Of a stretch of 64,000 nucleotides of DNA, positions 46,592 to 47,569 are shown piece by piece. The DNA lies in the NCBI GenBank assembly GCA_002713215.1, contig PAVO01000030.1:1-64000 (forward strand), read 5' to 3'. How positions within the stretch are numbered: the first letter of the stretch is position 1; every line of letters begins with the position of its first letter. This DNA is from Crocinitomicaceae bacterium (GTDB taxonomy: Bacteria > Bacteroidota > Bacteroidia > Flavobacteriales_G > Salibacteraceae). The notes beneath the pieces were generated by a model. That model was not told the origin of the DNA and did no database searches. It saw nothing but the letters and a program-made list of their open reading frames with translations. Position numbers and translations under genes: made by a program.

Positions 46592-46619
46592 AAAGCCCGG
46601 CTTATTGCTGGGCTTTTTT
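46592..46619 (+). terminator. terminator of 46223-46573
   Basis: AAGCCC-GC/GC-GGGCTT stem with one mismatch followed by UUUUUU. Confidence 0.85.
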
Positions 46620-46666
46620 GTGTTCGATGTTAAAAGAAATAACAGAGCCTGCGGCCACGCCAGAAC

Positions 46667-46846
46667 TTATTTGTTATTAATGGGCGTATACGTGACCTTG
46701 TCGTTGTTGTGAACGACATCATAGAGGGCAAAGTAATCGTCGAGGCGGGGTGCGCCCTCGTGATCTTCCGGTAAGTGGTGTTTGTAAACAACCTTCCATT
46801 TGTTTGAAAGGGTGCGGTGCTTATACAGGTAATATTCTACGATCAT
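46667..46846 (-). CDS. small protein (59 aa)
   Basis: A 59-codon gene with AGGGATTT before the ATG. The product is charged and aromatic-rich (MIVEYYLYKHRTLSNKWKV). It lies downstream of the structured region 46956-47287 on the same strand, so that region may be its long leader. Confidence 0.6.
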   Translation of the reverse strand: MIVEYYLYKHRTLSNKWKVVYKHHLPEDHEGAPRLDDYFALYDVVHNNDKVTYTPINNK

Positions 46847-46955
46847 GTTAAATCCCTATTTAATGTCGCCATCCATTGGCATGTATTGGCACAATGATGG
46901 GCTGGATAGGGAGTGGTGGTTCTCTAATGGTGGCTTACATAGTGCCTTGTTGGAA

Positions 46956-47287
46956 GCGAGAAGCCCCACCGCATAGCGGCAGGGGCTCGCTTTTGCTCAT
47001 TAGTAACGTGCTCAGGTGCTTTGCACCAAGTCCTGATTCAGCTGTTTGAGACTTTCACAGCTTTGAGCGCCCAGTCCGGATTCACCTATCAACTACGCCT
47101 GCCTTTTGGCGCCTTCAAGTACAGTTCGGACTTTTTTCAACAGTTGCCACAACAATTGGATTACGGTGCAATAGGCAATTCACCTGCATCACTTTGCTAT
47201 GTCTTCTGTCGAGGTTCACGTTACGCACCGCGACTTCGGTTGTATCACTCGCTTAAAAGCCAGTGAATTCAATTCGTTTGTCAGAGT
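46956..47287 (-). ncRNA. candidate structured RNA or long leader
   Basis: The promoter at 47294-47335 has the standard geometry, but no gene follows for about 440 bases and the usual CAGGGGAAAC leader is absent. In minus-strand RNA several hairpins form: ACCG-CGGT near 47236, GGUG-CACC near 47180, AGCUGU-ACAGCU near 47050, GGUGC-GCACC near 47022, and a long final stem GCGAG..CUCGC at 46956-46990. Stop codons interrupt the frames on this strand. It could be a free RNA or the regulatory leader of 46667-46846. The last hairpin lacks a U-tract in this direction. The 46847-46955 stretch holds nothing else recognisable. Confidence 0.5.
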
Positions 47288-47293
47288 AGGGTT

Positions 47294-47335
47294 ATCATAT
47301 CAAGAATTGCCCACACCAACAACATAAATGTAGTT
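47294..47335 (-). promoter_or_regulatory. palindromic promoter without a following gene
   Basis: Palindrome at 47318-47335 with one mismatch (TGTAGTT); -10 TATGAT at 47294-47299 after TGA. Drives the candidate RNA. Confidence 0.7.
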
Positions 47336-47356
47336 TAAATAAGGGTTAAATTGAGT

Positions 47357-47569
47357 TTATTTTGTCTTTGTTGCAGACCCAATAGGTAAGTTCTTAATTG
47401 ACAGTTTGATGAATACCCAAAGTAGTAGCCCGGCCAGAACAGCAGCACCCACAATAAACGGTAGCCTATCATTGCCTGATGCGTAGCTTTTCACAAATTC
47501 AAGAAGCTGGGCGACCACAAAAGACCAGATAGCGAAAAGCAATACGCGCAGAAGCAAGTTCATGATCAT
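47357..47569 (-). CDS. two-helix membrane protein (70 aa)
   Basis: Two hydrophobic helices (about residues 3-22 and 38-56). The start overlaps the stop of 47566-47748 (ATGA). Its end lies near the candidate-RNA promoter. Function unknown. Confidence 0.65.
   Translation of the reverse strand: MIMNLLLRVLLFAIWSFVVAQLLEFVKSYASGNDRLPFIVGAAVLAGLLLWVFIKLSIKNLPIGSATKTK

Follow-up and report, generated by a model that had tools for sequence, protein, structure and literature searches.

A putative stand-alone structured noncoding RNA of a modular family found on large plasmids and phage-like elements

The window analysed here, a stretch of 64,000 nucleotides, belongs to a contig of 156,279 bases in which a promoter module recurs. 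In its general form (ACAACA-N4-TGTTGT-N18..22-TATNAT) the module occurs 18 times without mismatch in the window. Over the whole contig 28 exact modules with a spacing of 17–20 were counted (27 on the minus strand), compared with none in 20 shuffles. As an element-wide promoter of the form ACAACA-N4-TGTTGT-N18/19-TATNAT it occurs in dozens of copies, for example at window positions 833, 4546, 9281, 12763, 51328 and 63251 (minus). One further copy, with one mismatch to the shared module, stands ahead of a segment of about 330 nt on the minus strand (Table 1). The original prediction, in which a palindrome/–10 module at 47294–47335 was followed by some 330 bases with stable hairpins and no convincing frame, was borne out on both counts: the module is present at 47334–47294, and the segment is ORF-poor and folds strongly, the 344 nt past the promoter reaching –113.9 kcal/mol (z = –3.4), a value equalled by none of 100 shuffles. 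The limits of the predicted transcript were set about 6 nt past the –10 element and at the last strong hairpin, whose end at 46954 agrees with the boundary of 46956 proposed before.

The contig encodes several replication proteins (DnaE-like, DnaN, a 5'-3' exonuclease and a Dda-like helicase), together with an integrase, a tellurite-type cluster (TerC, TerD, TRSP), DNA methyltransferases and a permuted tmRNA, and no capsid or terminase gene was found among the ~40 contig proteins scanned. We regard the carrier as a large element, either plasmid- or phage-like. The permuted tmRNA (L027:16915–17193, corresponding to C30 120915–121193, minus strand) matches RF04321 with 121.6 bits, well over the cut-off, and carries the tag ANDNVYGARLAA according to ARAGORN; a regulon promoter with one mismatch is found at C30:121246.

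Table 1. Features of the predicted RNA in the window and loci of module B in Vibrio phages and plasmids.
Feature	Position	Strand	Remarks
Shared-regulon promoter of the RNA	47294..47334	–	palindrome ACTACA-TTTA-TGTTGT 47334–47319, 19-nt spacer, –10 TATGAT 47299–47294
Predicted transcript, ~330 nt	46954..47288	–	from sequence and promoter position; fold z = –3.4
5' hairpin TTCACTGGCTTTTAAGCGAGTGA	47245..47267	–	fold z = –4.1; only in window copy
Conserved core, module A	46998..47227	–	~212 model positions plus 13-nt hairpin insertion
P1 5' strand GTAACGTG	47217..47224	–	pairs with 47003–47010, 8/8 pairs
P2 hairpin GCAA...TTGC around conserved GATGCAGGTGA-n-GCCTA loop	47168..47197	–	2 pairs double-changed in A3
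Loop word GCCT, invariant	47173..47176	–	complement of invariant AGGC 47101–47104; GCCT..AGGC in all A3 rows
P3 5' strand AGTCCG	47127..47132	–	pairs with CGGACT 47073–47078
P4 hairpin GCGCC-AAAAGGCA-GGCGT	47095..47112	–	4/5 pairs double-changed between species
P3 3' strand CGGACT	47073..47078	–	pairs with AGTCCG 47127–47132
P5 hairpin AGCTG...CAGCT	47040..47062	–	5/5 pairs in each of 4 divergent sequences
Extra hairpin GGTGCAAAGCACC, window-copy insertion	47015..47027	–	no counterpart in Vibrio, Photobacterium (alignment A2)
P1 3' strand CACGTTAC	47003..47010	–	pairs with 47217–47224
3' hairpin AAGCGAG-CCCC...GGGG-CTTCTCGCTT	46954..46992	–	–25.8 kcal/mol; fold z = –3.6
59-aa ORF downstream	46667..46846	–	no family match; possibly co-transcribed, outside conserved unit
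Module B loci	L006:3990-4147, L007:3986-4144, L008:3986-4128, L009:4930-5088		structured RNA, uncatalogued
Module B loci	L012:2996-3138, L013:2996-3139, L021:5004-5160, L011:2992-3155		structured RNA, uncatalogued

Distant blastn searches recovered the conserved core of this RNA, module A, in unannotated gene-free gaps of four Vibrio megaplasmids of 880–940 kb, and a homologue in a gene-free gap of a 599-kb plasmid of Photobacterium damselae; the proteins tested revealed no tie between the window's element and these plasmids. In the Vibrio copy, a TTGACG-N16-TATAAT promoter (11/12 to sigma-70) comes after the terminator of the upstream gene, and the unit, ~630 nt long, is closed by an intrinsic terminator located after a second conserved domain, module B, and ahead of an unrelated gene. 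The gene after the Photobacterium copy is convergent. The Photobacterium and Vibrio RNAs have in common a long 5' hairpin, GCATTTTGAGAG...CTCTCAAAATGC (L004:2895-2942 and L002:2855-2940; z = –9.6 in Photobacterium), which occurs in a weaker form in phage Her and is absent from the window copy, whose own 5' hairpin is different.

A second copy lies on the contig of the window, at 103423–103624, where it was found by model R1, built without it, in a search of its own genome (73 bits, E = 1.7e-13, the E-values of these searches being rough since they come from a short calibration); an independent blastn search with copy 2 matches the Photobacterium copy. Copy 2 sits between tRNA genes of the same strand: a tRNA-Gly follows it at ~50 bases, and two weaker tRNA matches precede it. 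No tRNA is close to the window copy or to the Vibrio and Photobacterium copies. On the 5' side of its cluster is the palindrome ACTACA-AATA-TGTTGT, which has the same left half-site variant as the one before the window RNA, and a –10-like word follows at ~31 nt from the palindrome, not 18–19. On its own, copy 2 folds no better than shuffles (z = –0.7), and the Rfam search that covered it detected only tRNAs, a tmRNA and one sub-threshold match. In the adjoining segment L026:19687-19950 (minus), degenerate or unusual tRNA-like genes with an encoded CCA were observed, which scored 42 and 26 bits against the tRNA model and were missed by ARAGORN.

These different surroundings bear on the two roles envisaged by the original prediction, namely a regulatory RNA of the regulon or a long leader for 46667–46846. 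The first is supported by the promoter of the shared set and by the covarying stems described below, whereas the second found no support as a general function, the downstream feature being different in every homologue (an unrelated gene, a convergent gene, a tRNA). A cis-regulatory 5' leader of the riboswitch or attenuator type is suggested by the position of the 59-aa ORF (46846–46667), on the same strand and 108 nt downstream with no promoter module between, and by the 3' hairpin of the window copy, which was not called in a terminator scan; as it has no U-run, this hairpin more probably stabilises the 3' end or marks a processing site than acts as a canonical terminator, and some read-through into the ORF is possible. 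Against such a leader, the Vibrio RNA stops at its own intrinsic terminator ahead of an unrelated gene, the next gene in Photobacterium is on the opposite strand, and a tRNA gene comes after copy 2, so that no downstream gene is common to the copies, nor does the RNA precede one type of same-strand gene, since both identity and strand vary. Taken together, the promoter and terminator of Vibrio, the convergent gene of Photobacterium and the tRNA after copy 2 argue for a separate transcript; leader function for one protein cannot account for arrangements so different, and we consider it very improbable.

The core of module A, ~212 nt, is predicted to fold alike in all the copies, and this structure is well supported by the comparison of their sequences. 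In the window copy, cmsearch assigns 191 bits to 47227–47015; the true 3' strand of the closing helix P1 (47010–47003) lies beyond both the hairpin insertion and the end of the cmsearch match. P1 is GTAACGTG/CACGTTAC in the window, GTAATGTG/CACATTAC in copy 2 and ATAGCAT/ATGCTAT in Vibrio, and P3 becomes AGTCTAG/CTAGATT in Vibrio and AGTTTAG/CTAAATC in Photobacterium; support for P2 is weaker in copy 2. The 8-nt loop of P4, AAAAGGCA, is nearly invariant and contains AGGC; this word is complementary to the GCCT of the P2 loop, both being invariant, and the two could form a loop-loop pseudoknot. P5 also covaries, with stems that, on inspection by hand, differ yet pair fully (AGCTG/CAGCT, TCGCT/AGCGG, ACCGA/TCGGT and ATCGA/TCGAT). 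The window copy belongs to the module A family by its compensatory P1, P3 and P4 and by the A/CAAAGGCA loop in P4.

The covariation rests on four divergent cores, namely the window copy and copy 2, both from one element, Vibrio and Photobacterium, and was evaluated in two alignments. Alignment A3, a sequence alignment of the window, Vibrio and Photobacterium copies from which the hairpin insertion of the window copy was removed, was submitted to a structure-neutral search for stems, in which P4 and P3 ranked at the top with P1 and P2 close behind; in 300 column shuffles no stem with four double changes appeared, and no pair of stems matched P4 plus P3. With the chosen structure, 98.6% of the cells of A3 are paired and 11 of 24 pairs are double-changed, a count reached in none of 500 shuffles. 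When copy 2 and the Vibrio variants were added, 12/24 pairs were double-changed in the six sequences (0/500 shuffles), in an alignment that was model-fitted and leans towards the structure, which is not the case for A3. Controls with slid partners gave at most 2 double-changed pairs in A3, and 0–3 across both counts; P5 covaries beyond the 24 pairs counted. The possibility, admitted at the outset, that covarying stems might be lacking is thereby contradicted, the stems covarying among homologues of other genera. Likewise, a conserved reading frame was looked for in the four core sequences and none was found, every sense frame across the window core containing several stops. An 81-aa antisense ORF (47021–47266, plus strand) was discarded as a candidate, since only the window copy keeps it open and the other three cores interrupt it. 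A diverging intergenic remnant with no functional RNA is strongly disfavoured by this covariation, its double compensatory changes being matched in 0/500 shuffles, and its probability is practically negligible; the sequence comparison makes a real, stand-alone structured RNA very probable.

Module B emerged when the Vibrio gap was used as a query and its 3' half matched 27 Vibrio phage records; a further query located it by blastn in 61 Vibrio phage records and on a V. coralliilyticus plasmid. Since module A is common to the window and module B to the phages, the Vibrio transcript consists of two domains. In an alignment of nine members, taken from phages of Vibrio, from two uncultivated viral contigs and from two types of Vibrio plasmid, 16/34 pairs of module B are double-changed (0/500 shuffles), and in at least three phages the module lies near tRNA genes. 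It gave no significant match in the whole genome of the window (model R2; best 18.8 bits, E 0.48) and none on the Photobacterium plasmid; conversely, no module A could be detected in the RNAs of the Vibrio phages. Module A and these RNAs share short words alone, such as GACGTTG and an ACTGCC-GTAAGCAGT-like hairpin, and we therefore make no claim of shared ancestry for their 5' parts. At phage tRNAs downstream of module B, conserved ORF-free blocks were also observed (L008:4150-4790, L012:3140-3720 and L007:4170-4620), of which AAGGAAAGCAACCGCAGCAAATTGCGACACAGCCGACGAATGG is an example common to L008 and L012; they are possibly further RNA domains.

Rfam 15 at gathering scores had no match in the window, and in relaxed searches nothing credible appeared, the GOLLD and ROOL models remaining unmatched at E up to 10 in the locus 46600–47400, at E up to 1 in the Vibrio, Photobacterium and phage homologues and at E up to 0.5 in copy 2; hence, the RNA cannot be assigned to GOLLD, ROOL or OLE. 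That it is nonetheless a genuine but diverged GOLLD or ROOL sequence, missed by these models, is suggested by the proximity to tRNAs, the modular build and the phages and plasmids that serve as carriers, and is made very unlikely by the lack of an Rfam match in all the copies searched, from the window and its locus to the phage homologues and copy 2. Further members of the family were sought in several collections. A direct blastn search of phages with the window RNA and three core-motif patterns over viral contigs retrieved nothing, and a core-motif pattern run over 84,980 species genomes gave 7 matches in unrelated phyla, dismissed as chance because the rest of the core was missing from their flanks. 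Models R1 and R3, applied to 395 gammaproteobacterial and 396 phylum-wide sampled genomes, found the genome of the window only, apart from a rejected match of 27 bits (E 0.003, about chance level across 395 genomes) in a 56%-complete assembly, whose flanks look protein-coding. The absence of further module A members suggests that the family is rare, or that it is confined to accessory elements under-sampled in these collections. Literature searches on large or structured noncoding RNAs of Vibrio, jumbo and H20-like phages yielded no account of the RNA; the H20-like phage paper names a tRNA-Arg and no noncoding RNA.

The patchy spread over apparently unrelated elements and the presence of two copies in one contig could also point to a ribozyme, an intron or another mobile RNA moving between elements. 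We judge this highly improbable: neither the window nor the locus has an Rfam intron or ribozyme match, the homologues lie in intergenic gaps, and the 5' and 3' attachments differ at each site. Among the copies the set of domains varies, with a variable 5' hairpin and a module B added in the Vibrio copies, and there is no linkage to a particular protein gene.

On balance, we favour, with moderate confidence, the view that the locus encodes a stand-alone structured noncoding RNA, of a new modular family on gammaproteobacterial large plasmids and phage-like elements, and that this RNA would act in trans. Rather than through cis regulation or antisense action, the RNA would be active as a folded molecule while the regulon of the element is on, and by analogy it might serve, along the lines of GOLLD and ROOL, as an RNA-only scaffold or as a binder of the translation machinery or of tRNAs. 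For such a GOLLD/ROOL-like role in trans the chances appear somewhat short of even. The tRNAs and the tmRNA encoded on the same contig make a link to translation plausible, though unproven. A base-pairing sRNA or antisense RNA of the element, directed at host or element mRNAs and merely stabilised by its fold, would also fit the element-wide promoter, the discrete size and the intergenic position; a closed multi-helix core of more than 200 nt with conserved loops and modular domains is, however, unusual for antisense regulators, and the same core occurs on elements between which our comparison revealed no genes in common. We hold this alternative to be unlikely. Beyond the single trans-acting RNA, a superfamily of modular element-encoded RNA machines can be tentatively imagined, although we deem it rather doubtful, in which modules A and B, joined in the Vibrio megaplasmids, would form RNA-only assemblies or act on translation with the tRNAs, and here the tmRNA, of the element.

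The RNA touches on an open question of RNA biology, that of large RNAs, such as GOLLD and ROOL, whose form is known and whose job is not. It represents an independent family on the same kind of carriers and partly in the same tRNA context, and illustrates the modularity of such RNAs, with domains shared between plasmids and phages. Relatives of it on phages and plasmids are present in Vibrio, a genus amenable to culture and manipulation, the window member of ~330 nt is short and hence easier to solve and to delete, and covariance models of modules A and B can be used to find more members.

Phages and prophages carry GOLLD and ROOL, in many cases close to tRNA islands, and both RNAs assemble into RNA-only cages whose function is not understood; in GOLLD, which has no protein product, the 3' region is conserved and the 5' region variable (PMC12286853). 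Another large RNA, abundant and noncoding, of ~800 nt, lies between gp139 and gp140 of the Vibrio phage ICP1, and its authors compared its size with those of GOLLD and ROOL (PMC7567579). It was considered as a member of the present family and rejected: over ICP1 55000–100000 module A scored at most 11 bits, off the locus, and module B had no credible match. Homology to GOLLD or ROOL was indicated by no test run here. Unlike GOLLD, the RNA matches Rfam's model neither in sequence nor in structure, the window copy is predicted at ~330 nt compared with >800 nt in many members of GOLLD, and what is conserved in it is module A rather than a 3' domain, module B being missing. Compared with ROOL the window copy is again the shorter RNA; the core is shorter too, with no Rfam match and no counterpart of the P1–P19 layout. 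Like GOLLD in part, on the other hand, it has one copy, copy 2, among tRNAs, the window, Vibrio and Photobacterium copies having none nearby, and in the Vibrio phages the 3' module B is conserved and the 5' parts are variable. ROOL, too, is large and structured and is located near tRNA islands in phages and prophages (PMC12286853). By analogy, these likenesses suggest that this previously uncatalogued RNA belongs with GOLLD and ROOL in one poorly understood class of large RNAs carried by mobile elements.
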